From NCBI RefSeq assembly GCF_000697965.2, contig NZ_CP015880.1, forward strand, positions 2,800,001 to 2,864,000: 64,000 bases of DNA, given 5' to 3'. The position numbers and the translations under genes are program-made. This document shows, piece after piece, positions 35,058 through 54,900 of this stretch (its first letter is position 1; every line of letters begins with the position of its first letter). Below the pieces are notes generated by a model. It was given only the letters and a program-made list of their open reading frames with translations. It made no database searches and was not told the origin of the DNA. The DNA comes from Ensifer adhaerens (GTDB lineage: Bacteria; Pseudomonadota; Alphaproteobacteria; Rhizobiales; Rhizobiaceae).

Positions 35058-36671
35058 TTATTTCGACGGGGAAGAGGACAACTGTTCCACGACTTTATCG
35101 AGATTGAAGCTCGCGGGTTTCTGCCGTGGCGGAAACTCCTTGAAGCTGCTGAGCCAATTCGCCGCCAATGTCTGCAAGGGAACCTGAACAAAGGCGTGAT
35201 CCGCAAGCCACTTGTCATACAGGATAGACTGATCTCCCCGCTCGAAGGGATCAGAACGAAGGTTGAACAGCTTGGGAATGCGCAGCTCTTCAAAACCGCG
35301 CTGCCAGACGCCGATCCCTTCATGGTTCTGTTCCAGGAACACGGCTTTCCAGTCGTTATAGCGAATGGCAACAAGCTGGCCGTCATCATTCCAGTAGACG
35401 AACTCCCGCCTCGGTGCGTCCTTCACCTCTCCCTTGAAGAAAGGCATGAGGTTATAGCCGTCGAGATGGACCTTGAAAGTCCTGGTGCCGAACTGTGCGC
35501 CCTTGAGGCATTTCTCAACGACATCGGGGTCACCGCCCGCAGCGGCAAAAGTCGGAACAAGGTCATAGTGGGAGAAGGATTCGTTGAAGACGGAACCTGG
35601 CTTGATGGTGCCGGGCCAGCGCATCAGCATGGGAACGCGGTAGCCGCCTTCCCAATTTGTCGCCTTCTCGCCGCGGAACGGCGTGTTGCCGCCGTCCGGC
35701 CATGACATTACCTCCGCTCCGTTATCCGTCGTGAATACGACTATAGTGTTATCGGCGACACCGAGGTCTTCGAGCTTCTGGAGCAATTGTCCAACATACC
35801 CGTCCAGCTCGACCATGCCGTCCGCATAGAGGCCCAGTCCAGTCTTGCCCTTGGATTCGGGTTTGAGGTGGGTCCAGACGTGCATTCGCGTTGGGTTGAA
35901 GTAGCAGAACCAAGGTTTATCGGCCTTCTGCTGGCGATCGATGAAATCGAGCGCAGCGCCGAGAAACTCCTGATCCACTGTCTCCATTCTCTTGGTAGTA
36001 AGCGCTCCCGTATCCTCAATCCGCCCATCAGCCGACGCTTTGATGACCCCACGTGGCCCGAAACGCTTGGCGAATTCAGGGTTCTTTGGATAATCGTCGT
36101 TCTCCGGCTCTTCCTCGGCGTTGAGGTGATAGAGGTTGCCGAAGAACTCATCGAAACCGTGATTGGTGGGAAGGAACTCGTCTTTGTCGCCCAGGTGATT
36201 CTTACCGAATTGCCCGGTGGCATATCCCAGGGGCTTGAGGAATTCGGCGACGCTTGGGTCCTCGGCCCGCAGCCCGATGTCCGCGCCAGGAAGCCCCACT
36301 TTCGTTAGTCCTGTCCGAATAGGCGATTGTCCGGTGATGAACGCAGCACGTCCAGCAGTGCAACTCTGCTCGCCATACCAATCGGTGAACTTTGCACCTT
36401 CCGTTCCTATTCGATCGATGTTGGGTGTGCGGTAGCCCATTATGCCGTGATTGTAGATGCTTGCATTGAACCAGCCTATGTCATCCGCCATGATCATGAG
36501 AATGTTCGGCTTGCGCCCAACTCCTGACCCAGCGGCCTGCTGTGCTATCGCAAGGCCTGGCGCCGACAATGACACGGCGCTGGCTGCCAGGGCAGTGCTC
36601 GCCACCAGCAAAGCGCGTCGACTAAGGCCTTGTGGAACTTCGTTAGCTGCGGGCTTCGATTCGTCTACCAT
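35058..36671 (-). CDS. Arylsulfatase (formylglycine-dependent, Tat-exported)
   Basis: 537 residues. A Tat-type leader (LSRRALLVAST, RR at 18-19, cut near AIAQ) precedes the sulfatase fold: NILMIMADDIGW supplies two metal aspartates, and S-C-T-A-G-R (Cys104) is the C-x-[AS]-x-R site whose cysteine becomes formylglycine. TTDNGAEVMSWPDGG and GGYRVPMLMRWPG complete the metal and sulfate pocket. Hydrolyses sulfate esters in the periplasm; substrate unknown. GGAG precedes the start at 36671; the frame extends 11 codons further. It looks less GC-rich than the core genes and sits beside a tRNA fragment, which suggests horizontal acquisition. Confidence 0.92.
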   Translation of the reverse strand: MVDESKPAANEVPQGLSRRALLVASTALAASAVSLSAPGLAIAQQAAGSGVGRKPNILMIMADDIGWFNASIYNHGIMGYRTPNIDRIGTEGAKFTDWYGEQSCTAGRAAFITGQSPIRTGLTKVGLPGADIGLRAEDPSVAEFLKPLGYATGQFGKNHLGDKDEFLPTNHGFDEFFGNLYHLNAEEEPENDDYPKNPEFAKRFGPRGVIKASADGRIEDTGALTTKRMETVDQEFLGAALDFIDRQQKADKPWFCYFNPTRMHVWTHLKPESKGKTGLGLYADGMVELDGYVGQLLQKLEDLGVADNTIVVFTTDNGAEVMSWPDGGNTPFRGEKATNWEGGYRVPMLMRWPGTIKPGSVFNESFSHYDLVPTFAAAGGDPDVVEKCLKGAQFGTRTFKVHLDGYNLMPFFKGEVKDAPRREFVYWNDDGQLVAIRYNDWKAVFLEQNHEGIGVWQRGFEELRIPKLFNLRSDPFERGDQSILYDKWLADHAFVQVPLQTLAANWLSSFKEFPPRQKPASFNLDKVVEQLSSSPSK

Positions 36672-37079: not shown

Positions 37080-37463
37080 ATGATGCATTCGACCCCTTCC
37101 CCGTCGGTCCTGCCGGCGGCGTTCACGGCAAAGCGCGCGGCAGCGTACTCGGTGCGCGGCTACACCATGGGCGCTATCAAGGATGGCTGGTGGGCGTTTG
37201 TGCCCGGTCAACAGGCCAAACCAAACGACGACCTGGTTGACGAGCTTTGCATCGCGCATACGAAATCCGGCCGCACTCTGCTTCGATTTCTTCGGAAGGG
37301 CCGCGTGCCCGGTACATGGGATCTTCTCTCCGTAACTGGCGACCCACTCCTCGATCAGGAACTGTTATGGGCGGAAAGGGTGATCTGGCTTGAACCTCAC
37401 AAGATCACACACACCGAAATTGCAGAATGCCTCGCGATTGAAGCAGCGAAGGTCGCGGAGTGA
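37080..37463 (+). CDS. UmuD/S24-peptidase-like protein, catalytic residues replaced
   Basis: 127 residues, no DNA-binding domain. It aligns by eye to the S24 (LexA/UmuD/CI C-terminal) fold: AYSVRGYTMGAIKDGWWAFV matches the strand around the catalytic Ser-Met, with Thr29 where Ser is expected. ELCIAHTKSGRTLLRFLRKG matches the strand of the catalytic Lys, with Arg69 in its place. TWDLLSVTGDPL and WAERVIWLEP match the closing strands. A stand-alone S24 domain under an SOS box resembles UmuD, but self-cleavage looks lost. It overlaps the next gene by 4 nt. Possible roles are a decoy partner of LexA or repressor, or a polymerase accessory factor; this is inference. Confidence 0.6.
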   Translation: MMHSTPSPSVLPAAFTAKRAAAYSVRGYTMGAIKDGWWAFVPGQQAKPNDDLVDELCIAHTKSGRTLLRFLRKGRVPGTWDLLSVTGDPLLDQELLWAERVIWLEPHKITHTEIAECLAIEAAKVAE

Positions 37464-37852
37464 TGTCGGCAGAAATCAAACTTAAATACAATTGGCGCCG
37501 CCTGCCAAACGACCCGGAAACGCTGTTTCACGGGGACGACGGCGATCGTCGAATGGGCCGTGTTCAGAAGGCGGTCACGGGCGAATACTGGCTTTGGTTC
37601 ATGAACTTTCAGCACGGCATCAACGATCCGAAGGTGGCGGTGACACTGAACGGCGGGGCGGAAACAGGCAGGCAAGCGGCCGCCGCCTGCGAGCGGTGCT
37701 ACGAAGCGGTTCTTGATGCAACGTGGCCGGGGATGACGCCTGCGCTTCGTGATCGCTTGTTGGCGCATGAAAAGGAAATGAAAGATCGCAAAGAGCAATG
37801 GGCTCGCGAGGACGCTATGCGCCGGCGCCAATCACTGAGGGTTGTCAGCTAG
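37460..37852 (+). CDS. Hypothetical protein, SOS-box operon second gene
   Basis: 130 residues, starting GTG-ATG with GGAG next to it. No family recognised. Visible: WRRLPNDPETLFHGDDGDRRMGRVQKAVTGEYWLWFMN, an alpha/beta-looking first half, then a helical, highly charged C-terminus (LLAHEKEMKDRKEQWAREDAMRRRQ). Coupled to the S24-like gene by an ATGA-type overlap, so it shares the SOS control. Its 3' end overlaps the end of the convergent ligase gene by 21 nt. Confidence 0.7.
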   Translation: MMSAEIKLKYNWRRLPNDPETLFHGDDGDRRMGRVQKAVTGEYWLWFMNFQHGINDPKVAVTLNGGAETGRQAAAACERCYEAVLDATWPGMTPALRDRLLAHEKEMKDRKEQWAREDAMRRRQSLRVVS

Positions 37853-38827
37853 ATCGTCGATCGAGAAAACTCTCGTATCATCGTTTCGCACTTTCACGCC
37901 TTTGAACGACGGATGGCGCAACTTGCCGTCCTGGGTCCAAGCCCGATACTCGACCTCGGCAACAAGGAGCGGCTCGGCGAAAACCGCCCCCTTTCGCTTC
38001 AGGGACACCGGCGGGTGCGCCGCTGGTATCGCGTCGAGCAGTTCGCGCAGTTGCACAGATTCCTTGTTGCTCCATCCAGTACCGCACCCGCCGACGTAGA
38101 CGAGCCCGTCGCCCTTCTTGGCCGCCAGCAGTAGCCGGCCAATCGCGCCTGGCACGGTCGAGCGCTCATAGCCTACGATCACAAAGGTATCCCGCCGCGC
38201 GCATTTGATCTTGAGCCATTCCGGCCGGCGACCGGATCGATACGGCGCGTCCTGGCGCTTGGCGATGATGCCTTCTAGCCCCATCTCGCAAGCGATCTTG
38301 AAGAACTCGGCGCCGTCAGCGTGCACCTCCTCCGAGAAGCGGATTGCACCAGTCCTGCCGACGACGATAGGCTCGAGCAGGCGTCGACGCTCTGACAGAG
38401 GATGCATTCGAAGGTCTTGGCCGTCGAGATAGAGGAGATCGAAGGCATAGAAGATGATCTCGCCGACATCGTGCAGGCTTGGCTTTTTCCCGACGGCGCG
38501 CTGCAGCAGCCCGAAGTCTGAGCGGCCTTGGTCGTCGAGAACGACGACCTCCCCATCAATGATCATGGAGGCGTGCCCGAGCTCGCGCGCCTCGGCGACG
38601 ATCAAGCCGAACTTCTTTGTCCAGTCGTACCCGCCGCGGGTGATCGCCCTCACCCCGCCTGGCTCGACGTGGACCGCGAGGCGGTATCCGTCCCACTTCA
38701 CCTCAAAGGCCCATTCCGGACCTTTCGGTGGCTTATCGACGAGGGTCGCAACGCAGGGATCGACGCGGCGAGGCATCGGCTCGGGCAACGTCGCGGGAAC
38801 AGATTTCTTTCTGAGTGTTTTAGCCAT
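37832..38827 (-). CDS. ATP-dependent DNA ligase (LigD ligase-domain type)
   Basis: 331 residues. Nucleotidyltransferase motif I is EVKWDGYRLAV, with lysine as the AMP attachment site; MIIDGEVVVLDDQG is motif III, GLEGIIAKR motif IV, and EWLKIKCARRD motif V. An OB-fold follows (FVIVGYERSTVPGAIGRLLLAAKKGDGLVYVGGCGTGW). This is the stand-alone ligase domain of the NHEJ enzyme LigD, without polymerase or phosphoesterase domains, and no Ku gene is nearby. Tail-to-tail overlap of 21 nt with the SOS operon links it to a DNA-damage theme. ATG preceded by an in-frame GTG; ribosome site weak. Confidence 0.9.
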   Translation of the reverse strand: MAKTLRKKSVPATLPEPMPRRVDPCVATLVDKPPKGPEWAFEVKWDGYRLAVHVEPGGVRAITRGGYDWTKKFGLIVAEARELGHASMIIDGEVVVLDDQGRSDFGLLQRAVGKKPSLHDVGEIIFYAFDLLYLDGQDLRMHPLSERRRLLEPIVVGRTGAIRFSEEVHADGAEFFKIACEMGLEGIIAKRQDAPYRSGRRPEWLKIKCARRDTFVIVGYERSTVPGAIGRLLLAAKKGDGLVYVGGCGTGWSNKESVQLRELLDAIPAAHPPVSLKRKGAVFAEPLLVAEVEYRAWTQDGKLRHPSFKGVKVRNDDTRVFSIDDLADNPQ

Positions 38828-39151
38828 CACGCATTAACGCCTGAGAGCGCGAAACGGCTCAAGCTATTTTCATGGAACCTTTAACGCATATGGCTGTTTT
38901 AGCCGTCCCGATGGTCCACATCCCCTGCGGATCGACGGAGGGGGCCAGCCCCCCCGCGTTGGGTCCCGGTGATGACGCGCTGACCCCGTCGGAAACGGCG
39001 GGGTCTTTTTTTCGAATGGACGGAACATGTGCCCGCCGAAAGCGGTTCTATGCCGCCTGTCGATTAACGGGTGGGTTCTGTCTCCTAACTTGAACTCGAT
39101 CTGGTATTACACGCGCGCTCTGGGCTCGTCGCGAATGACGGGCCCTTTTGA
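38828..39151. other. Intergenic region with orphan terminator
   Basis: 324 bp between the ligase start and the end of the facing 97-residue gene. A plus-strand frame at 38872-39093 has no ribosome site and poor composition. A G/C-rich hairpin (GGGGGCC-A-GCCCCCC, near 38940) and a strong terminator (38982-39012) suggest a short plus-strand transcript, possibly a small RNA, but I cannot place its start. Confidence 0.35.
38982..39012 (+). terminator. Strong plus-strand intrinsic terminator with no assigned gene
   Basis: GACCCCG (38982-38988) pairs with CGGGGTC (38999-39005), followed by TCTTTTTTT. No plus-strand gene ends just upstream, so it may end a non-coding transcript arising near 38850-38950. 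Confidence 0.7.
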
Positions 39152-39445
39152 CTAAGAGTTACCCATGCGCGCCAGACACCAATCCCAATAGGTCTCGACC
39201 ATCTCCGTCGCCTCGCGAGCGGTGTCGCAATAGCCTTGGTTCGGCGTCGGCGGCGATCCTTTGAAGGTGCGAGGGACAGATCCAGCCCATTGCCAGCGGC
39301 CAGTCGTCGGGCCTGCCAACTCTTTCCGGATGCGGCCGATATAGCCGACGCCGTCAAACCCGAGCCAATCGAAGTCGGTCGGCGGGTCGTTGGCGTCAAG
39401 CTCGGTGCGTCGCCATTGGTATCTCGGCTGGTAGAGCTCGGTCAT
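39152..39445 (-). CDS. Conserved-looking hypothetical protein
   Basis: 97 residues, rich in W, Y and D: MTELYQPRYQWRRTELDAND, DWLGFDGVGYIGRIRKE, GRWQWAGSVPR, then a helical end AREATEMVETYWDWCLARM. Composition is protein-like in this frame only. No family recognised; such short tryptophan-rich proteins are common as phage or plasmid orphan genes. The ribosome site is weak. Confidence 0.6.
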   Translation of the reverse strand: MTELYQPRYQWRRTELDANDPPTDFDWLGFDGVGYIGRIRKELAGPTTGRWQWAGSVPRTFKGSPPTPNQGYCDTAREATEMVETYWDWCLARMGNS

Positions 39446-39628
39446 GGCGTAGGATGTGATTGGCCCGAGGAGAAAATCAAGCCTGCGAGAGGGTGCGACA
39501 GAAAGCCTCGCTCAAGGCGAGCGCGCTAACCAAATCTTATTGAACATTCAACAACCTAAAGACGTTGAGTTCACATTGACATCCGAAGAGTCTCCCGTTG
39601 CGTGCCTGACGGTAATCCATAAGATCGA

Positions 39629-39671
39629 TTGACTATAACACCTTGGGCAACTATCTTTGTCACAAAGACAA
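39629..39671 (+). promoter_or_regulatory. Promoter and overlapping operator of the Fic operon
   Basis: TTGACT (39629-39634), 17 nt, TATCTT (39652-39657), directly followed by TTGTC-ACAAA-GACAA (39657-39671), a palindrome over the expected transcription start. This layout is typical of self-repressed toxin-antitoxin operons. The first start codon is 64 nt further on. Confidence 0.6.
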
Positions 39672-39734
39672 GAAAAAGATGGCGGAAATCAACGGGTTAG
39701 CCCAACGCACCGTACATCCTTGAGGAGCAAAGCC

Positions 39735-39929
39735 ATGACGAGCAACCTTAAGACCAAAGACACGCTGTTGCGCACGCTGCGCCGCGCCGGATCTAAAAAG
39801 CTATCGTTCGAAGAACTACAGCAGCAGCGCGTATCGTTCGTGATCGGGTCACTTTCGGCCGAGAGCAACGTCACGCGCGCGCAAGTGAAGGAAGTTCTTG
39901 CCAACTTCCAAGGCCGCAAGAGCGCATAA
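39735..39929 (+). CDS. Small protein preceding Fic, candidate antitoxin or regulator
   Basis: 64 residues with a strong GAGGAG 7 nt upstream. Two predicted helical halves: MTSNLKTKDTLLRTLRRAG and RAQVKEVLANFQG, joined by FVIGSLSAESNVT. Class I Fic antitoxins of similar size (VbhA type) carry an inhibitory helix with [S/T]xxxE[G/N]; here S-L-S-A-E-S is close, with Ser in the last position. Basic residues could also bind the palindrome at 39657. The stop TAA touches the Fic start, so expression is coupled. The antitoxin role is an inference from position and size. Confidence 0.65.
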   Translation: MTSNLKTKDTLLRTLRRAGSKKLSFEELQQQRVSFVIGSLSAESNVTRAQVKEVLANFQGRKSA

Positions 39930-40649
39930 GTGATCCTGTTCGAGATTACGCGAAACGAGCAGCATCCCGCCTATCAGCGGCTGGAAATCGAAAACGGCAT
40001 TCGACATTACGATTTTCTGAGATCGATGGTGGTGGCCTCCCTAGAAATGGGGAGGCCTTTCCTATCTCAGCAGATTATGAAGGCGCTGAATTTCCACGCG
40101 ATAGCCTGTCTGCACACACATGCCGGAGAGTACCGGCCTTGCCCGGTTCAGGTGGGCGACTATCGTCCGCCAGAACATTACCAGGTCGTGCCGCTGATGG
40201 ACGACTTCGTAAACATGGTGAACCGCGGATGGCAGACAAGCGATCCCGTAGTTATGGCCGCTTTTGTCCTTTGGCGCCTCAATCATATTCACCCATTCAT
40301 CAACGGTAACGGCAGAACTGCGCGCGCAGCAGCGTACTTCGTCCTATGCGTATCGGCCGAAAGTTGGCTCCCAGGAGAGACCATCCTCCCTGAACTTTTG
40401 CGTCAGAACCGCAAAGAGTATGTCGAGGCCCTCCGTTTGGCTGATGCGGCGTATGAGGCGAAGGGCGAACCTGACCTAGGCCCTCTCCACGAAATGCTGT
40501 CCAGACTTTTGGACCAGCAACTCCAAAGCGCCGGACTGTCGCCAGAGGAGGCCGATGGCGAAGACAAGGCTGAAACGCCCACGAATGGCGATATTCAGGA
40601 ATTAGTCGCCGCAGACGGTCCTCAGCCCGAAGGCGACCCGTTGACTTAG
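39930..40649 (+). CDS. Fic domain protein with Asn in the metal-binding position
   Basis: 239 residues starting GTG immediately after the upstream stop. The Fic core is clear: H-P-F-I-N-G-N-G-R-T-A-R (about 119-130) is the active-site loop, preceded by VVMAAFVLWRLNHI. In most AMP-transferring Fic enzymes the fifth position is Asp/Glu and binds Mg; here it is Asn (codon AAC), which may alter activity or substrate. The acidic, proline-containing C-terminus (about 185-239) looks disordered. It lies in an operon with the 64-residue protein and an SDH-type proteinase. Probably a cytoplasmic nucleotidyltransferase toxin or host-modifying enzyme. Confidence 0.9.
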   Translation: MILFEITRNEQHPAYQRLEIENGIRHYDFLRSMVVASLEMGRPFLSQQIMKALNFHAIACLHTHAGEYRPCPVQVGDYRPPEHYQVVPLMDDFVNMVNRGWQTSDPVVMAAFVLWRLNHIHPFINGNGRTARAAAYFVLCVSAESWLPGETILPELLRQNRKEYVEALRLADAAYEAKGEPDLGPLHEMLSRLLDQQLQSAGLSPEEADGEDKAETPTNGDIQELVAADGPQPEGDPLT

Positions 40650-40660
40650 GCGTGTATTGT

Positions 40661-40701
40661 GATCAATCTGCAGCCCTCAATGGTTGGGGGCCAGATTGAT
40701 C
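40661..40701 (+). promoter_or_regulatory. Intercistronic hairpin covering the proteinase start
   Basis: GATCAATCTG (40661-40670) pairs perfectly with CAGATTGATC (40692-40701). Inside, CCCTCAA (40674-40680) pairs with TTGGGGG (40684-40690) across a TGG loop. The G run (Shine-Dalgarno) and both candidate TTG starts (40684, 40696) lie within the stem. No U tract follows, so translational control rather than termination is likely. Confidence 0.6.
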
Positions 40702-41646
40702 GATACAGTTGAAGACGGTTTTGAGCAGGCTATCAGGGACGTTGCCGACGCTTATGACGCCGACATTTATGTTTACTCCGGAAACATTGATCACGCGGGG
40801 TTTGGGAAGGTAGTTGAAGCGTTTTCACGCGACGGCCGTCCTAACGCACTTGTAATTTTGACTACAAACGGCGGTCTGGCAAATTCGGCTTACAAAATTT
40901 CGCGCTTCTTCCAATCTCAGTATGACCGGTTCATAATATTTATTCCAAGTGTGTGTAAGAGCGCAGGGACGCTCCTCGCTATTGGTGCGCACGAACTGAT
41001 CATGAGCACTTTTTCTGAACTGGGCCCATTGGATGTCCAACTCTACGAGCGCGACGAAATTGGCGCCCGCAAGTCGGGGTTGTTGAGCCACTCTGCCTTT
41101 GACGCGCTAAAGGCGGAAACCTTCGCGCTTTATGAGCATTTCATGCTCTCTATCAAACAGCGGAGCGCGGACAACATCAGCTTTCCGATTGCCTCGGAGG
41201 TCGCAGGAGACATGGCGTCAAGGGTGATGTCTCCAATCTTCGAGCAGATATCGCCTTCCATTTTAGGCAGCGACTACCGGGATTTGCAGGTAGCCATCGA
41301 ATACGGCAACCGCCTCGCTCTTCAAAGCGAGAACATTACATTCGAAGCAGTGAAGTTCCTTACGGAACAATATCCTTCTCATGACTTTATTATTGACAAG
41401 AATGAAGCAGAAAAACTTTTCCATGATGTGGAGGCACCAAAACCGGAGCTTTGGGCGTTGATAAAATACCTCAAAGATTTCGTCTTTGTCCCCCATGAGC
41501 CGACCACCGTATTTAACCTCAACTCGTTCCTGGAGGTCGTGGACGATGAGCAGTCAGAACGTGAAGCCAGCGAGCCAGACACCGAAGAAGCCGAGCCCAC
41601 CGGATTGGATAGTGGCCAAGACGGAGATCGCGACGGGACTAATTGA
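40696..41646 (+). CDS. SDH-family serine proteinase (ClpP/SppA-fold)
   Basis: 316 residues. It matches the serine dehydrogenase proteinase (SDH_sah) branch of the ClpP/crotonase superfamily: VILTTNGGLANSAYKISRFF, then FIPSVCKSAGTLLAIGAHELIM with the nucleophile serine in K-S-A-G-T, followed by SELGPLDVQ. Unlike many relatives it has no N-terminal membrane anchor. A C-terminal acidic tail (EPDTEEAEPTGLDSGQDGD) recalls the tail of the Fic protein. The start is TTG (40696, GGGGG 5 nt upstream; TTG at 40684 also possible), buried in a hairpin. Third gene of the Fic operon; its 3' end overlaps the next small gene by 101 nt. Confidence 0.82.
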   Translation: MIDTVEDGFEQAIRDVADAYDADIYVYSGNIDHAGFGKVVEAFSRDGRPNALVILTTNGGLANSAYKISRFFQSQYDRFIIFIPSVCKSAGTLLAIGAHELIMSTFSELGPLDVQLYERDEIGARKSGLLSHSAFDALKAETFALYEHFMLSIKQRSADNISFPIASEVAGDMASRVMSPIFEQISPSILGSDYRDLQVAIEYGNRLALQSENITFEAVKFLTEQYPSHDFIIDKNEAEKLFHDVEAPKPELWALIKYLKDFVFVPHEPTTVFNLNSFLEVVDDEQSEREASEPDTEEAEPTGLDSGQDGDRDGTN

Positions 41647-41749
41647 ACGCGGAAGCAAGCAGCACGACATCGAGAGCCTGATACGCCCGCGGAACAGCCC
41701 TGACCACTTCCGACATCACGGGAAACTGTACAGTCGCGTTGTGCAGTAA
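41546..41749 (+). CDS. Small basic protein overlapping the proteinase gene
   Basis: 67 residues in a different frame from the proteinase, with GGAGG 9 nt upstream of its ATG. The N-terminus is Ser/Pro/Lys-rich and probably disordered (MSSQNVKPASQTPKKPSPPD); the rest (WIVAKTEIATGLIERG, then HDIESLIRPRNSPDHF) looks helical. No family recognised. The 101-nt overlap implies tight coupling to the proteinase; it could be a substrate, adaptor or inhibitor. Followed by a hairpin terminator at 41758. Confidence 0.6.
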   Translation: MSSQNVKPASQTPKKPSPPDWIVAKTEIATGLIERGSKQHDIESLIRPRNSPDHFRHHGKLYSRVVQ

Positions 41750-41757
41750 GGAACCCC

Positions 41758-41777
41758 GCCGGAGCCTTTGCTCCGGC
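41758..41777. terminator. Hairpin between Fic operon and lysis operon
   Basis: Perfect 8-bp stem GCCGGAGC / GCTCCGGC with a CTTT loop between the plus-strand operon (ends 41749) and the minus-strand lysis genes (end 41785). No U tract, so strength is uncertain. Confidence 0.6.
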
Positions 41778-41784
41778 TGGCCCC

Positions 41785-42111
41785 TCACCCCTTTTCCACC
41801 TTCGCGCCGAACCAACGCATGAACAGAACCTCGGACCCTCGTGGCCCGAGGTAGGCGAGCGCGGCGATCATGCCGGTCGCCATCGGTTGCCCGAGAGCCA
41901 GCCAGTTCGCCAACCCCTCGCCGATGAAGGCCATGCCGACCGCGATCGGCATCTCCCACAGCAGTTCCTTCCCGAAAAACTTCCGTCGCATCTTTCGCAC
42001 CTCGTTTGTGTGCCACATGAGGCGACCGGCGAAGACTGCGATAAGGGTGGTCGCCGCGCCGCCGAACCAGGCATTGAGCAGCTCGATAAGAGACGTGTAC
42101 TTTTCCTGCAT
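41785..42111 (-). CDS. Putative phage holin
   Basis: 108 residues with three hydrophobic segments (about 17-33, 52-73, 77-92) and charged ends (KMRRKFFGKE between the first two; FGAKVEKG at the end). Size, topology and position beside endolysin and spanins fit an inner-membrane holin that times lysis. It starts 1 nt past the stop of the o-spanin gene. The family name (LydA/phage holin type) is a recollection. Confidence 0.75.
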   Translation of the reverse strand: MQEKYTSLIELLNAWFGGAATTLIAVFAGRLMWHTNEVRKMRRKFFGKELLWEMPIAVGMAFIGEGLANWLALGQPMATGMIAALAYLGPRGSEVLFMRWFGAKVEKG

Positions 42112-42112
42112 A

Positions 42113-42358
42113 TCAGCGATTTTCCCCGTGTCGCTTGCATTCCGCCTTCGTCCAGATCGCCGCGGCGCAGATGCCGACGGCGGTCCGGTCTATCTTTTTC
42201 TGATCTTCGGGCGTCGCCCCTCGCGCGCCGATCAGGTCTGTCCCGACGATGCTTCTAAGGGCCGTTACACTCGCCGGCGCCGAAGTTCCACAGCCCGCCA
42301 GCATCAAGGCAGGAATCGTAATCAATGCGCTTGGAATGAGCGCTGCTCGCCGCTTCAT
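42113..42358 (-). CDS. Outer-membrane spanin subunit (Rz1-like lipoprotein)
   Basis: 81 residues with a lipoprotein signal: MKRRAALIPSALITIPALMLAGC, lipobox L-A-G-C with Cys23. The gene starts inside the i-spanin gene in another frame (104-nt overlap), the classic Rz/Rz1 arrangement. The mature part is not proline-rich as in lambda and has two more cysteines (GICAAAIW, AECKRH). With the i-spanin it would fuse inner and outer membranes in the last step of lysis. Confidence 0.75.
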   Translation of the reverse strand: MKRRAALIPSALITIPALMLAGCGTSAPASVTALRSIVGTDLIGARGATPEDQKKIDRTAVGICAAAIWTKAECKRHGENR

Positions 42359-47214: not shown

Positions 47215-47432
47215 CAGCTGTAGATCTCGATCGTGCCGTTGTTGAGGTTGATCGCGAGCCTCTGATCCCTAGAGCGCAGAATTCCTGCCTGAACCAGACC
47301 GACATCGGCATTGCTTAGGGCCAAAGTACCGCTATTTTCGAGCGCGACTGGAACGGCCATGCGCCGGTCGGTGGCCGCTGCGGGAAGGACGGGCGCAACA
47401 AAAAGCGCCGCGAGGAATGACCTGCGCTTCAT
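47214..47432 (-). CDS. Short protein with twin-arginine-like signal and tail-tip C-terminal motif
   Basis: 72 residues. N-terminus MKRRSFLAALFVAPVLPAAA is a signal peptide with RRSFL (Tat-like). The rest is homologous to the last 45 or so residues of the 843-residue tail-tip protein: ADVGLVQAGILRS versus ANIGLIRSGRLLS, and both end INLNNGTIEIYS. The 3' ends are nearly identical in DNA (37 nt, one mismatch). Exported free copies of a tail-tip end are unusual; it could mask a receptor or be a recombination remnant. Confidence 0.65.
   Translation of the reverse strand: MKRRSFLAALFVAPVLPAAATDRRMAVPVALENSGTLALSNADVGLVQAGILRSRDQRLAINLNNGTIEIYS
47216..47252 (-). repeat. 37-nt direct repeat, copy 1 (coding)
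   Basis: Codes the shared NLNNGTIEIYS end of the 72-residue protein. It differs at one position from the copy at 47902-47938. Confidence 0.85.
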
Positions 47433-47899: not shown

Positions 47900-50431
47900 T
47901 TAGCTGTAGATTTCGATCGTGCCGTTGTTGAGGTTGATGTCCATCTTGCCGTTCTGCGAGAGGAGCCGGCCCGATCGGATCAAGCCGATGTTTGCGATGT
48001 TGAGCTTCAGCTCGCCGTTCTCGATGACGATGGGCAGGAAGGCATTGCTGCCCCCGTTCCAGACAACGAACTGATCGGCCTTCACAGCGAAGCGGGATTT
48101 GAGCACCCCACCTTCCGTGTAGATCTCGATGTAGAAGCCGCTGTCTTTGAAGGTTTCGTTGAGGGTTGCGCGCAGCATAACCGAGAAGCGAGAGGTGACG
48201 CCTGACTGATCAGCGGCCGCCTCAAACTTCACCAGCCCGCCGGCGAAGCGATTGTTCACGTCGGCGCTGACGCCTGTGATGCTGGAGGCTAAGGCGCTGT
48301 CTTGTGTGGCACGTGCCGTCTCCTCAGCGATGAGCCTCGCAAGGTTGCTGCCCACCGTCGCCGTCAAGGCCGTAATCAGCTGTGCGAGCGCTTCGTCCTG
48401 CGACACACGCACGCGCGCCTCCGTGACGATCTGAGCAAAGGCATCGCCGACCGCTGCCTTCAACTCCTGCCGCTTGACTTCGCCGACGGCACCATCGAGC
48501 GAAAAGGCCGTCGTCAATTCCTCGAGGCGCTGCCAGACGCCGTTGAACTCGCCTTGAAGCTCTTCGAAGCGGTCCTTTAGGTCGTCGCGGACCTGGCCGA
48601 GGCCGATTTGAACGTTCAGCGATCCGGTGATCGTCGACGTGGTGCGCCAGGGCGTGAAGGTACGCAGCCGGTCCGGGTTAGTCTTGATGGTCGCCCGCGC
48701 GACATACGCCTTCTCCGAGATGACGTTCTTCGTGGTTCGGTACCGACCGACCTCGGGTTCGCCGCACTGGTCAGCGAACTCTTCTGCAGCGCCGTCGATG
48801 CGATAGACAAAGAGCACGTCCGTGATGGTCGGATCGTCCGGAGGGTCCCAGACGAATTCGAGCGCCGGCACGTCGAAGCCGTTTCCGCCCTGGATCATGC
48901 CGGCGTGAACGTCGAAGTTCTGCACCGTGAACAGCTGCGATGGGTTGATCGGCGGCGTGGGCGGTACGACGATCGGGCCGGGCTCGATGTCGCCGTCATC
49001 ATAGATGTCGGCGCCGGCCTCGGTCAGCACGAAGGTGAAGCGCAGATCTTCGTCGCAGCGCCATTCGGAGATCATCCAGACATTGCCGAGATAGCTGACC
49101 CACTCGCCTTCCTTCACCTTCAGCCCGACGCGCCGGCTGACGGGTACCGTTGCCGTGCCGCCTTTGCGGTTCTGGCGGTAGCGGACGTTCAGCAGGTACT
49201 GCGCGATATCCGCATCGGAGACCTGCAGAAAGTCGATCGAGGTCTGACGCGGCCGCTTGTCGGCGGCGACGTCGGCATTGACGACGATCGGCTTCAGGCT
49301 CTCCGGGTTCCACATCGCCTCCGGCGAGGTGAACTGGCCGGACAGATGGTTGAAGAGATCGAAGGCCGATTTGCGCGGCTGGCGGGGCTTCGGTCGGTCG
49401 GCCGGGATATCCTTATCGGTGATATCAAGCACCGGGATCTGCGGCGCGCCGACGACGACGCCCGAAAGGCCGCGGCGGTTCAGCCCGTAGCCGGCCATGG
49501 CATCGTCAAAGGCCGACAGCGCCTCAGTGTGATCGGTCTCGGAGTTGACCCAGAGCGAGCACTGATAGATCGGCTTTCCCTTGCGGAGCGTCCGGCAATA
49601 GTTGATCGCGACAAAATAGGACGACAGGTCCAACTGGCCGAGCGACTTGCCTTCGCCGATCAGCGTGCGGCCCGAGCGCAAGCCCCTGAGACCGAGCTGA
49701 TAGTTGAGCCGATGGATCGCAGGGTTCAGCGTGTGCGTCCAGGTCGAGGGATCGTTGAGCCGCTGCGGGCCATTGCCGCCGGCCACCGTCGAGTCCTTCG
49801 TCGGGTCGTACTCACGCAGACCGCGCAGCACCCACTCGAACTCCGGACGCCCCTTGTCGAACTTCGAGCTATCGAACTTGCGCTCGACAACGACATAGGC
49901 CAGCCCGCTGAGGCGGCTGGTCGCCTTCCAGATCTTGCCGAGGCCGGCCGTGTCGTTGACGAGCTTCTGATCGACAGGCTGGCCCGGCCGACCGTCATAG
50001 AAGCGGATCGAGATGAGATCACCGAAGCCGTCGACACCGAAGTGGGAGACCTCGCCGCCGATCAACGGCCGCACCACCAGGTTCTTTTTCTCGCCGTAGA
50101 AATAGACGTAGTTTTCGAGGCCGTCGCACCAACCGTTCGCCAAGATGAAAACGTCGAAGTTGACCTTATTGCCCTTGCCCGCCTTCCCGTAGTAAGCGCG
50201 CTGGCCTTTCGTCTTGCCGGTACCGAGCAGCGCGTCGACGGGCACATCGCCGCCCATCTGCACTTCGCCCTGGACGGCGGTGAACTTCTGCTTCTTCTGC
50301 TTGTTGGTGAGCTTGCCCAGCCCGATCTGTGCACCGAACGCCAGCGCACCCCCGATGAGCTTGGCAGCGAGCAACGAGCCGCCGAAGAGCGCGCCGGAGA
50401 TCAGCGCGCCCAGACCGGAAAAAATAGCCAT
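47900..50431 (-). CDS. Phage tail tip/host-specificity protein (J-like)
   Basis: 843 residues. A hydrophobic, glycine-rich N-terminus (MAIFSGLGALISGALFGGSL, then AKLIGGALAFGAQIGLG) is typical of central tail-tip proteins that cross the host membrane. The body has hub domains (about 60-470), a fibronectin-like segment (about 480-580), a coiled-coil-rich stretch (about 600-720) and a DUF1983-like C-terminus (NRFAGGLVKFEAAADQSGVTSRFSVML) ending NLNNGTIEIYS. It is the lambda gpJ counterpart; it follows the DUF6950 gene by 9 nt. Confidence 0.88.
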   Translation of the reverse strand: MAIFSGLGALISGALFGGSLLAAKLIGGALAFGAQIGLGKLTNKQKKQKFTAVQGEVQMGGDVPVDALLGTGKTKGQRAYYGKAGKGNKVNFDVFILANGWCDGLENYVYFYGEKKNLVVRPLIGGEVSHFGVDGFGDLISIRFYDGRPGQPVDQKLVNDTAGLGKIWKATSRLSGLAYVVVERKFDSSKFDKGRPEFEWVLRGLREYDPTKDSTVAGGNGPQRLNDPSTWTHTLNPAIHRLNYQLGLRGLRSGRTLIGEGKSLGQLDLSSYFVAINYCRTLRKGKPIYQCSLWVNSETDHTEALSAFDDAMAGYGLNRRGLSGVVVGAPQIPVLDITDKDIPADRPKPRQPRKSAFDLFNHLSGQFTSPEAMWNPESLKPIVVNADVAADKRPRQTSIDFLQVSDADIAQYLLNVRYRQNRKGGTATVPVSRRVGLKVKEGEWVSYLGNVWMISEWRCDEDLRFTFVLTEAGADIYDDGDIEPGPIVVPPTPPINPSQLFTVQNFDVHAGMIQGGNGFDVPALEFVWDPPDDPTITDVLFVYRIDGAAEEFADQCGEPEVGRYRTTKNVISEKAYVARATIKTNPDRLRTFTPWRTTSTITGSLNVQIGLGQVRDDLKDRFEELQGEFNGVWQRLEELTTAFSLDGAVGEVKRQELKAAVGDAFAQIVTEARVRVSQDEALAQLITALTATVGSNLARLIAEETARATQDSALASSITGVSADVNNRFAGGLVKFEAAADQSGVTSRFSVMLRATLNETFKDSGFYIEIYTEGGVLKSRFAVKADQFVVWNGGSNAFLPIVIENGELKLNIANIGLIRSGRLLSQNGKMDINLNNGTIEIYS
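47902..47938 (-). repeat. 37-nt direct repeat, copy 2 (coding)
   Basis: Codes the NLNNGTIEIYS end of the tail-tip protein; one mismatch from the copy at 47216-47252. Confidence 0.85.
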
Positions 50432-52358: not shown

Positions 52359-53005
52359 GAGAAGAACAGCTCCGTTGCTGTAAACTGGACATTGGAAACC
52401 GGCCAGGACTTCGGCAAGCTGAAGCTGCCCTCGTCCATCTCCATGATGCAGGCCGACTTCTCGAAATGGACCGTATTGCCCGCGGCAAAGGTCTGGGTGT
52501 CGAGCGCGAACCGTATCGACAGGCTGACCACGCCCGCGCCGTTCGCCGTCGCGGGTGCGGTGATGCGATGCAGCGAGCGTACCAAGGCCGACTTACGGAT
52601 CTCGACATAGTCGCCAGACGACAGCTTGAAGCCAGCAGGCAAACCGTTGACGACGATCGTCTTGGCGTTCGTGATCGACTGAAGCACCGCGTCGCCGTTA
52701 AAGGCACCGCCGCCCGCCTTCACCCCGGCGAGCGGTGCGCCCGCGTAAGCGATCGGCCGAGGCCTGTGCGGGTCGTAACCGGCGAATACCCCGCCATCGC
52801 TGGCGAGCATATTGAAGGCATCGAAGAGCGACACCTCATCCGTCGTCAGCTTCGACGCTGCATAGGTCGCTACCCAATAGGGCGTTCCGCGAAAGAGCGT
52901 CTCAGTTTTCCGGCCGAGCATGCGCGAGGTGCTACGGGTGCGGATCGGGTCGAATGAGATCGACGGGCCGTAGATGACGGCAGGTAGCGAGATCAGATCC
53001 GGCAT
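52355..53005 (-). CDS. Phage minor tail protein, tape-measure-adjacent
   Basis: 216 residues, begins MPDLISLPAVIYGPSISFDP; contains RTRSTSRMLGRKTETLFRGTPYWVATYAA and a beta-rich C-terminus ending QFTATELFFS. Overlaps the tape-measure gene by 1 nt and the next by 4 nt. Position equals lambda M or a distal tail protein. No precise family assigned. Confidence 0.72.
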   Translation of the reverse strand: MPDLISLPAVIYGPSISFDPIRTRSTSRMLGRKTETLFRGTPYWVATYAASKLTTDEVSLFDAFNMLASDGGVFAGYDPHRPRPIAYAGAPLAGVKAGGGAFNGDAVLQSITNAKTIVVNGLPAGFKLSSGDYVEIRKSALVRSLHRITAPATANGAGVVSLSIRFALDTQTFAAGNTVHFEKSACIMEMDEGSFSLPKSWPVSNVQFTATELFFS

Positions 53006-54855
53006 CAGTATTCCCCGCCGTTCTGGCGGATGTTTGCCCGCGCCGCCTCGTTGCGCCTGATCAACTGAACCGACTGGCCGCTTGCCTGTTCGAGGATCTT
53101 GGCAACCAGGTCCTCGCCCAGTTCTAGCTGGATAACCGTGCGATTATCGCCGCCCTGCCCATTTCCATTGTCGCGGATTTTCGAAGGCGCGATGATGCGG
53201 CCATGCTGGGTCGGCGCAAAAAATTCGTCTTCATATTCGTTGATCTCGTAGATGCGCCCCGGCGACACATCACCGCCACCTGCTCGCGCTCCGCCCTTTA
53301 GAAAATCGCCGAGGGTCGTGTTCGGCACGAAGCTTGAGGAGAAAAGCCCCTTGCTACCACCGCCAAAGCCACCGGACAACGCTTCGAACAGCGAGCCGAA
53401 GAGCCCCTTTCCATTCGTTTTCACGTTGACCACTTCCGTGAGCACGGCTGCGAGTGCCTCTTTAAGATCGAAGGTGCCGTCGATGGCCCGCATCAACTGA
53501 TCGTCGAGCGTGTCACCCATGCGCTGCGCCGCGTCGCGCATCCGCTCCTGGCTGTCGATCAGCTGTTCCTCGGCCGCCATCTGCTGATACTTCTTGTCGA
53601 TCAGCTTGGAGATTTCCTGCCCCTCTTTCGAGGCGTAGGTAACGCCGGCTTCGCGCAGCGCGATTGTGCGCTCGCGCTCGATGTCCGTCAGCCCCATCAC
53701 CGCGAGCTCGTCGCGCAATGACTGGATGACGTCGTCGATCGCCTTCTTTTCCTTTTCGGCGGCGCGCTCCGCCTTGGAGCGTCCGCCGCTGCCACGCCCC
53801 TTTTTGTCATCATCTGGTGTGATAACGGGTGGCGTCCATTTCACGCTCGGCGCGGGTTTTGGAGAATTTCGGTCGCTGAGGATCGCGATCACGCGATCTT
53901 CTTCTTCCCCGATCTGATCGAGGTAGGCTTCCAACTGGGTAATTTGCTCATCGAGCATACCCTTGGCACCGTAGGCTCCCATCGCTTCCCGCGTTTCTTT
54001 CGCCTCGCGAATCTGTTGGGCAATATCGTTGCGTCGTCCCAGCAGCTCGGTCTGGCGGGCAGCAAGCGTATTCGTCTGCTGGTTCTGGATATCATTGAAG
54101 CTGTCGATGAACTGACCCATGCTGCTAACGACTGACACGATGGCAGCTTTCAAGTTGGTGCCCACAGTCGTCGCTATAGCGTTGAGCTTGCGGTCGATCT
54201 CAGCCGCCTGCTGGACCATCTTTTCGTCCAACACGATACCGAGGTCATTGGCCGCCTTGATCGTATCGCGAATGCCAGCTTCACCCGCTTCAATAAGCTG
54301 AACGAACTGCTCGCCGCCGGTACCACCGAATACTTCATCGAGAATGCGGATCTGCGCCGCCTTATCGAACTGCTGCAGCTTCCCGATAATCTCGGTAAAC
54401 AGGGCCGATGGGTCCTTGAGCTTTTTCTTAAGATCGTCGGCATTTAGCCCCAGACGCTTAAACGCTTCAGCCGCCGAACCGCTGCCCGTGAGGATGAATT
54501 CATCGGCGCGAAGGTTGAGTTCCTTGATGCCGTCGGTCAGAGCATCGACGCCGATGCGGTTCTGCTCGGCGACATACTTCAGTTCCTGAAACGACTTCAC
54601 GTCGAGGCCTGCACGCCGCGCCTCGTCGCCGATGGAAGCTATTGCACTGGCCGCATCCCGAATGACGGCAACCGTCGAGGCAGAGATAACCCCTGCCGCG
54701 ATGCCCGCGACGCCACCTGCCAGGCTTCTGATACGGCCGATCGAAGCTACGACATCGAGCGCCGTAGATTTTGTCATAGCTCTAATGCGTGCTAGCGAAG
54801 CCTCAAAACCCTTGGAGTCACCCGAAATTGTAACCGGGATGTCTGGACGACTCAT
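53005..54855 (-). CDS. Tail tape measure protein
   Basis: 616 residues. Helical, with coiled-coil stretches (about 40-330), including LTDGIKELNLRADEFILTGSGSAAEAFKRLGLNADDL and IRILDEVFGGTGGEQFVQLIEAGEAG, which are typical of TP901-type tape measures. A charged linker (about 330-410) and a C-terminal region LFGSLFEALSGGFGGGSKG follow. Tape length sets tail length; 616 residues predicts a short siphoviral tail of about 90 nm at 1.5 A per residue (estimate). GAGGTCTACT precedes the start. Confidence 0.88.
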   Translation of the reverse strand: MSRPDIPVTISGDSKGFEASLARIRAMTKSTALDVVASIGRIRSLAGGVAGIAAGVISASTVAVIRDAASAIASIGDEARRAGLDVKSFQELKYVAEQNRIGVDALTDGIKELNLRADEFILTGSGSAAEAFKRLGLNADDLKKKLKDPSALFTEIIGKLQQFDKAAQIRILDEVFGGTGGEQFVQLIEAGEAGIRDTIKAANDLGIVLDEKMVQQAAEIDRKLNAIATTVGTNLKAAIVSVVSSMGQFIDSFNDIQNQQTNTLAARQTELLGRRNDIAQQIREAKETREAMGAYGAKGMLDEQITQLEAYLDQIGEEEDRVIAILSDRNSPKPAPSVKWTPPVITPDDDKKGRGSGGRSKAERAAEKEKKAIDDVIQSLRDELAVMGLTDIERERTIALREAGVTYASKEGQEISKLIDKKYQQMAAEEQLIDSQERMRDAAQRMGDTLDDQLMRAIDGTFDLKEALAAVLTEVVNVKTNGKGLFGSLFEALSGGFGGGSKGLFSSSFVPNTTLGDFLKGGARAGGGDVSPGRIYEINEYEDEFFAPTQHGRIIAPSKIRDNGNGQGGDNRTVIQLELGEDLVAKILEQASGQSVQLIRRNEAARANIRQNGGEY

Positions 54856-54900
54856 AGTAGACCTCACAAAGGATAGGGTTTGCTAACTGGAGGATGTTCG

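Follow-up and report, generated by a model that had tools for sequence, protein, structure and literature searches.

Architecture of the locus

The stretch of DNA analysed here (hereafter the window) comprises 64,000 nucleotides (nt) from Ensifer adhaerens (contig NZ_CP015880.1, positions 2,800,001 to 2,864,000 of the forward strand), and within 39629–41749 of this window four plus-strand open reading frames (ORFs) lie in succession: sp64, encoding a small protein, a gene for a Fic protein, a gene for an SDH-type serine proteinase and C67, a small gene that begins inside the proteinase gene and is read in its +1 frame (Table 1). The locus consists of two adjacent modules, A (sp64-Fic) and B (proteinase-C67), and what stands out in it, as the best conserved and least expected element, is the +1 overlapping gene and not the pairing with Fic. 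A first reading of the letters alone (the original prediction) had given the same four ORFs, the same coordinates and the exact extent of the overlap, and had described both large proteins as acidic-tailed; all of this was borne out, with isoelectric points (pI) of 4.9 and 4.4 for Fic and proteinase and of 11.0 and 10.1 for sp64 and C67. For the proteinase we favour the start at 40696, because a 316-residue copy in the databases fits this position. The setting is that of a phage: IMG/VR contains the same provirus, whose base 1 corresponds to window position 35058, and the minus strand carries tail genes (47900–50431 and 53005–54867) as well as an ATP-dependent ligase gene (37832–38830).

Table 1. 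Positions in the window of the genes and sequence elements of the locus.
Feature	Position	Strand	Remarks
Sigma-70-like promoter TTGACT-17-TATCTT	39629–39657	+	ahead of sp64-Fic; kept in L094, similar in L153
Palindrome TCTTTGTcACAAAGA	39654–39668		across the expected transcription start; broken in L094
sp64	39735–39929	+	ATG start; 64-residue basic protein; probable class-I-like Fic antitoxin
Fic protein	39930–40649	+	GTG start right behind the sp64 TAA; 239 residues; acidic C-terminal tail
SDH-type serine proteinase	40696–41646	+	TTG start, alternative TTG at 40684; 316 or 320 residues; ClpP/SppA/1510-N-like
GGAGG, Shine-Dalgarno-like, for C67	41532–41536	+	9 nt ahead of the C67 ATG
C67	41546–41749	+	67-residue basic protein; +1 frame of the proteinase
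Dual-coding overlap proteinase/C67	41546–41646	+	101 nt; codon-position shift

A gene overlapping the proteinase in the +1 frame

Of 94 non-redundant protease loci (73 on genome contigs, 20 on viral ones, and locus L005; comparison loci carry L numbers throughout), 69 have in the +1 frame an ORF that opens with ATG at least 30 nt ahead of the protease stop, runs across it and ends 9–200 nt past it; in the +2 frame the count is 0 of 94. Eleven further protease loci gave a long +1 ORF in seven cases (that of L134 repeating that of L113, and that of L144 repeating that of L014), an overlap of 8 nt only in L156, and none in L132, L136 and L147. This count is no proof alone, since acidic codons leave +1 open but +2 closed, and the former frame is no more open than in synonymous shuffles (mean p 0.52; 4 of 94 loci at p<0.05). 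An alternative is that the +1 ORF is a mere by-product: the GAN codons that encode the acidic tail would leave that frame open and rich in ATG, and the 25 of 94 loci lacking an ORF of the set size would fit such an origin as well.

The pattern of substitution decides against this explanation. Changes fall on codon position 3 in the protease core; inside the overlap they fall on position 1, which is where the +1 frame has its wobble base. For the Cyanobacteria, pooled rates at positions 1/2/3 were 0.063/0.032/0.241 for the core, compared with 0.246/0.065/0.056 for the overlap (pairs within the group not being independent), and Fisher tests on single pairs gave p values of 2.5e-5 for the Cyanobacteria, 1.4e-6 and 2.7e-5 for two sets of viral contigs (the former for the set close to a Marinobacter locus) and 3.8e-5 and 1.9e-6 for the group of the window. 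The shift is weaker in the window's group, where overlap positions 1, 2 and 3 change at 0.46, 0.33 and 0.47. Over the 40 codons ahead of the overlap no shift was observed in four of the five pairs, the exception being L108/L109 (p 0.011), and past the protease stop third-position changes of the +1 frame are enriched. As the shift occurs in five pairs from four groups, both frames of the proteinase/C67 overlap are under selection, and the third-position constraint in the overlap together with the coding signature past the stop, in four separate groups, leaves the by-product explanation scarcely credible. On the same two grounds C67 was rejected as a chance ORF; that it is more than this is argued by the signs of dual-frame selection in the window's own group and by the GGAGG 9 nt before its ATG, which is kept in L005 and in L094, a locus taken as an Ensifer adhaerens prophage by protein identity.

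Proteinase and C67 constitute a conserved two-gene module; the original prediction had noted their overlap, but not that it is here that the conservation runs deep. Structure prediction gives C67 a disordered basic start followed by helices at residues 20–38, 42–45 and 52–66 (predicted TM-score, pTM, 0.33). The median pI was 10.3 for 81 of the +1 proteins versus 4.75 for the last 60 residues of the proteases, part of this mirror image being forced by the genetic code. Homology searches with the +1 proteins reached beyond the seeds with good E-values only to L096, to L038 and, in L029, to an ORF that lies at the protease end and that our script had not flagged as +1. The motif W-x(5-7)-[ILM][GA]x[AG], drawn up post hoc, occurs in 12 of 94 +1 frames versus 38 of 13,335 ORFs of 50–140 residues, a background that includes those same +1 frames and duplicates. 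We found no description of a protease with an overlapping gene in the open-licence literature. The original prediction, which could not name the pairing of a Fic protein with such a proteinase as a known system, was right in this, and the arrangement it described is real. Overlapping bacterial genes supported by codon-level selection across distant groups are unusual, and such genes are easily missed by annotation.

The proteinase

The proteinase belongs to the ClpP/SppA-type fold class. It matches the Pfam family SDH_protease (PF01972) at 9.7e-8, with 31.8 bits barely above the gathering cut-off of 31.3 bits, and obtains 45.4 bits against the NCBIfam equivalog NF047768, so far under the cut-off of 250 that we regard it as a distant branch; at least 902 homologues were found. 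The expectation of an SDH-type proteinase carried as phage cargo together with an overlapping small gene is supported. The AlphaFold2 (AF2) model, with a mean predicted local distance difference test (pLDDT) of 82.7 and a pTM of 0.71, is confident in its core, Foldseek ranks SppA, 1510-N and ClpP first at probability 1.00 (SppA 4kwb, 6.2e-6; 1510-N 3viv, 3.4e-5), and a profile search matches 1510-N at 2.6e-4. The Ser of the sequence CKSAGT is invariant across 32 sequences and falls, in the alignment, on the serine that was mutated in 6m4b, the S97A structure of 1510-N; it is the probable nucleophile. The GG, SAGT and GPLD motifs are shared with the SDH family of Clp-fold proteinases (PF01972, NF047768), SppA and 1510-N; unlike these, the window proteinase exhibits an acidic tail, an overlapping +1 gene and no membrane anchor, none having been seen in the sequence or in the AF2 model, although no transmembrane predictor was run.

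Distribution of the proteinase module

Module B occurs patchily, as cargo carried by phages and prophages, by chromosomes and by an inovirus-like plasmid. Within the genus, 2 of 16 genomes gave a protease match (E<=0.001); at E<=1e-20 the numbers were 5 of 385 genomes sampled from the class and 2 of 398 from the phylum, the own genome being included in each count, and IMG/VR has 25 loci with the module, own provirus included. It is found on an inovirus-like Methylovorus plasmid with Zot and capsid genes, in the Klebsiella phage ST13-OXA48phi12.4, where an XRE gene lies close by in divergent orientation, and in chromosomal contigs too; a distant protease relative on a 4.15-kb ColRNAI plasmid is without an overlapping ORF. 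Two different protease loci (L029 and L065) stem from one Albidovulum bin. A recurrent small protein, NPAAVALGRLGG..GG.ARA...RW-like, is encoded directly upstream of, or slightly overlapping, the protease in L031, L039, L065, L087 and L102; the L031 copy has no Pfam match.

This distribution bears on two other explanations of the module. Proteinase and C67 could themselves be a toxin-antitoxin pair for maintenance of the element, with C67 as inhibitor: two-gene cargo on an inovirus-like plasmid, in phages and in chromosomes would suit such a role, as would a basic partner facing an acidic protease tail, but the small gene is placed behind the enzyme gene and the relative on the 4.15-kb plasmid does without it, and we consider this rather unlikely. 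A late-phage function, for instance in virion maturation or host takeover, is suggested by the tail genes that adjoin the module in this prophage; as the module also occurs in chromosomal contigs, beside repressor-like genes and on a plasmid of inovirus type, we consider it very improbable.

As to the latter position, the protease lies directly behind a protein with helix-turn-helix (HTH) and S24 domains in L108, L113 and L135 (a Proteus record), and behind an S24-domain protein in L109. In L105 the gene just ahead of it encodes an HTH_3 protein, and L028 and L114 have a repressor-like gene at a distance of one to three genes; since only candidates picked by eye were scanned with Pfam, this count is a lower bound. 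In phage lambda, rexAB sits behind the repressor gene and has a role in superinfection exclusion. The five loci with the protease directly downstream of a repressor-like gene occupy the same place, which suggests, by analogy, expression in the lysogen and superinfection exclusion as the role of module B. The proteins are unrelated to RexAB, however, and the window copy lies outside the repressor operon, elsewhere in the prophage and with its own promoter.

The sp64-Fic pair

The Fic protein matches Pfam PF02661 (2.4e-17), the PADLOC family SoFic (6.7e-18) and, as nearest solved structures, FICD (1.2e-9). Its motif, HPFINGNGRTAR, carries Asn where Asp or Glu is usual. Among the 2,433 homologues, this Asn recurs in every one of the 120 listed (own copy included), and 116 of the 120 share the identical 12 residues; it is therefore a trait of this Fic clade; the more distant family members L046 and L155 exhibit Asp or Glu at the acidic position, L046 with the canonical HPFSDGNGRTSR. 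The original prediction of a variant Fic with a small upstream partner is supported, and the variant residue turned out to be ordinary in the near clade. Ten database proteins (own copy included) were found for sp64, and a small partner with the signature QRxSFxxG lies upstream of Fic in 18 of the 19 family loci with upstream DNA, the exception being L154, in which another small gene is annotated; the pattern was drawn up post hoc from the sequences, and neither L122, which has no upstream DNA, nor L084 and L142, which match weakly, enter the count. The host genome encodes a second, different Fic protein (G000:C3:310408-310683) with an HTH-like reading frame, identified by eye, directly upstream.

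The small gene directly upstream of Fic recalls class I FicTA systems (EcFicT/EcFicA, VbhT/VbhA), in which, by the published motif definitions, the antitoxin exhibits [S/T]xxxE[G/N] and the Fic protein HxFx[D/E]GNGRxxR (PMC5033356). Compared with these definitions alone, S39-L-S-A-E43-S of sp64 resembles the inhibition motif and both arginines of the Fic motif are present; on the other hand, Ser takes the place of Gly/Asn behind the Glu, and with Asn instead of Asp/Glu the window protein departs from the Fic pattern. The relatives vary likewise when held against the same definitions: the inhibition motif is exact in L120 and L126, has Asn for Ser/Thr in L046 and L149–L152, and is without its Glu in the partners of L121, L123, L125, L127–L130, L153 and L155. 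Because Ser follows the Glu and several relatives are without the Glu, we call sp64 and Fic FicTA-like only, their membership in class I being unproven on motif comparison. In addition, sp64 matches no Pfam or NCBIfam antitoxin model and no PADLOC family. The best NCBIfam match of Fic is mobile mystery protein B (TIGR02613; 6.4e-12), although at 45.7 bits it stays below the cut-off of 124.4. The usual partner of mobile mystery protein B is an HTH protein.

Promoter and palindrome

The original prediction had proposed a shared promoter overlaid by a palindrome as sign of a self-regulated operon; both elements are present in the window. Although consensus promoter matches alone are not above chance (2 found versus 1.3 expected), the promoter is kept as TTGACT-TATCCT in L094 and as TTGACT-TACCCT in L153, at nearly equal distance; between Fic and proteinase we looked for a plus-strand promoter-like site and found none. 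The palindrome TCTTTGTcACAAAGA, in contrast to the promoter, is not conserved in L094, and palindromes with arms of at least 6 occur at 0.52 per 240 nt of window, so that a self-regulated operator is a weak reading and the palindrome was rejected as a conserved one. A strong hairpin followed by a T-rich stretch, terminator-like, lies inside the Fic frame (40034–40057), its stem differing in L094. Elsewhere in the prophage, a secondary match in the DNA comparison revealed a near-perfect 37-bp direct repeat (97.3%; 47216–47252 and 47902–47938).

Association of the two modules

The idea of the four genes as a general unit did not stand up. Where at least 1.4 kb of downstream DNA was available, a protease gene followed Fic directly at 3 of 17 Fic loci (window, L094 and L046; L120 and L126 were left out, having too little downstream DNA), and among 111 non-redundant SDH loci (11 with less than 600 nt upstream) Fic lay directly upstream in four: the same three and L084, whose Fic is of another type. 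At this last locus (L084:6067-8378, Parabeggiatoa contig) the Fic protein has 519 residues and the protease gene is cut by the contig end. Pairs of small partner and Fic without protease were found in L121, L123, L125, L127–L130 and L149–L153 (1.4–6.7 kb of downstream DNA inspected), and G001, of the same genus, carries proteinase and C67 without Fic on the opposite side of the phage ligase gene. Most Fic loci and most SDH loci being unpaired, the four-gene unit was rejected as a general rule. These observations favour two unrelated accessory modules that merely share a cargo hotspot of rhizobial prophages, with Fic and protease never cooperating.

Against such independence stands the recurrence of the order. 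The original prediction had held that confinement to close relatives of this phage would speak against a unit; the same four-gene order is found, however, in the deeply divergent prophage locus L046 of Rhizobium setariae, which has a capsid gene adjacent and shares only 33.8% (Fic) and 34.9% (protease) identity. In all three loci that combine Fic with an SDH gene and its overlapping partner, Fic lies directly upstream on the same strand, and within 37462–42121 of the window the block 39494–41718 is the sole DNA common to L094. The closest Fic relatives found for L046 (L149–L152) have no protease in the 3.5–5 kb downstream, and its closest protease relative found, L148, has no Fic: there (L148:3446-6000) an HD phosphohydrolase, dNTP triphosphohydrolase-like (PF01966 and PF13286), takes the place of Fic upstream of the protease and its overlapping partner. 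In the Fic tree and in the SDH tree alike, the pairing must have changed at least twice on branches with good support, with seven database rows (P numbers) and L095, whose gene context is not known, counted as unpaired, a long-branch warning for the SDH tree and one very long row (L142) in the Fic tree. On the simplest reading of these trees, the order would have been assembled twice, in Sinorhizobium/Ensifer prophages and in R. setariae, one old assembly with repeated losses being possible. A different order is seen on a Methylosinus plasmid (L155:1542-3986), where a more canonical SDH protein and a small gene precede a small-partner-Fic pair.

As the four-gene order recurs, a functional link of the protease module to Fic is plausible, although three cases and possible cargo hotspots fall short of proof; on balance, the explanation by unrelated modules comes close to an even chance. 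At the other extreme, the locus could be one integrated system in which a C67-gated protease cleaves sp64 and so releases Fic upon infection. The recurrent order and upstream effectors that look exchangeable (the HD phosphohydrolase of L148, the other Fic of L084) would agree with this, but only three four-gene cases were seen, and two of these are closely related; L148 and L084 each stand alone, and most proteases have no toxin-like gene upstream when judged by eye; we regard such integration as unlikely.

Proposed mechanism and significance

As best explanation of the whole locus we propose, with a confidence that falls just short of even, that a temperate Sinorhizobium/Ensifer phage carries two adjacent modules as cargo, namely a FicTA-like pair and a protease controlled by C67. 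In module A, sp64 would be translated first, bind Fic and block its nucleotide site, and free Fic would modify a host protein and so halt growth. In module B, a soluble and probably self-assembling ClpP/SppA-like serine protease would be made along with C67. The small protein would most probably dock onto the protease, at its acidic C-terminal tail or at the pore, and either keep it off or pick its substrates. Infection by another phage would relieve the control by C67, and cleavage would then abort the infection, thus acting as superinfection exclusion. Here and in R. setariae the two modules probably form a single transcription unit, so that proteolysis may also free Fic via removal of the antitoxin.

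Besides the openness of the +1 frame in shuffled sequences, several observations weigh against this explanation. Residues 124–134 are unsure in the AF2 proteinase model, and the best Foldseek matches superpose poorly overall (TM-score 0.25–0.39, root mean square deviation 6–16 Å). Of the candidates for the general base, read by eye, His233 is invariant and Lys130 is replaced by Arg in several members. No homology could be detected between +1 proteins from different groups (between-group matches E >=0.1). PADLOC has no model matching the proteinase or C67 (0 families each), and a scan of 131 of 298 neighbour proteins (mostly the nearest on either side, by simple ORF rules, with family tallies only, and excluding Fic neighbours and the repressor genes found by the separate Pfam scan) gave only scattered defence matches amid transposases and housekeeping genes. 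Finally, the window module adjoins tail genes and is not downstream of a repressor. A defence role for the locus is possible.

A wider generalisation, which we offer as speculation and consider unlikely, would be a widespread, undescribed phage-borne protease system that encodes its regulator or adaptor out of frame in the protease 3' end and whose exchangeable upstream toxic effectors (Fic pairs, a dNTP-triphosphohydrolase-like protein) would be released by infection-triggered proteolysis. Apart from this, the hidden C67-type gene is the mark of a mobile protease module that phages, plasmids and chromosomes carry, and the locus offers a testable link between phage-borne proteolysis and Fic and hence a route to a possible new mechanism of superinfection exclusion.

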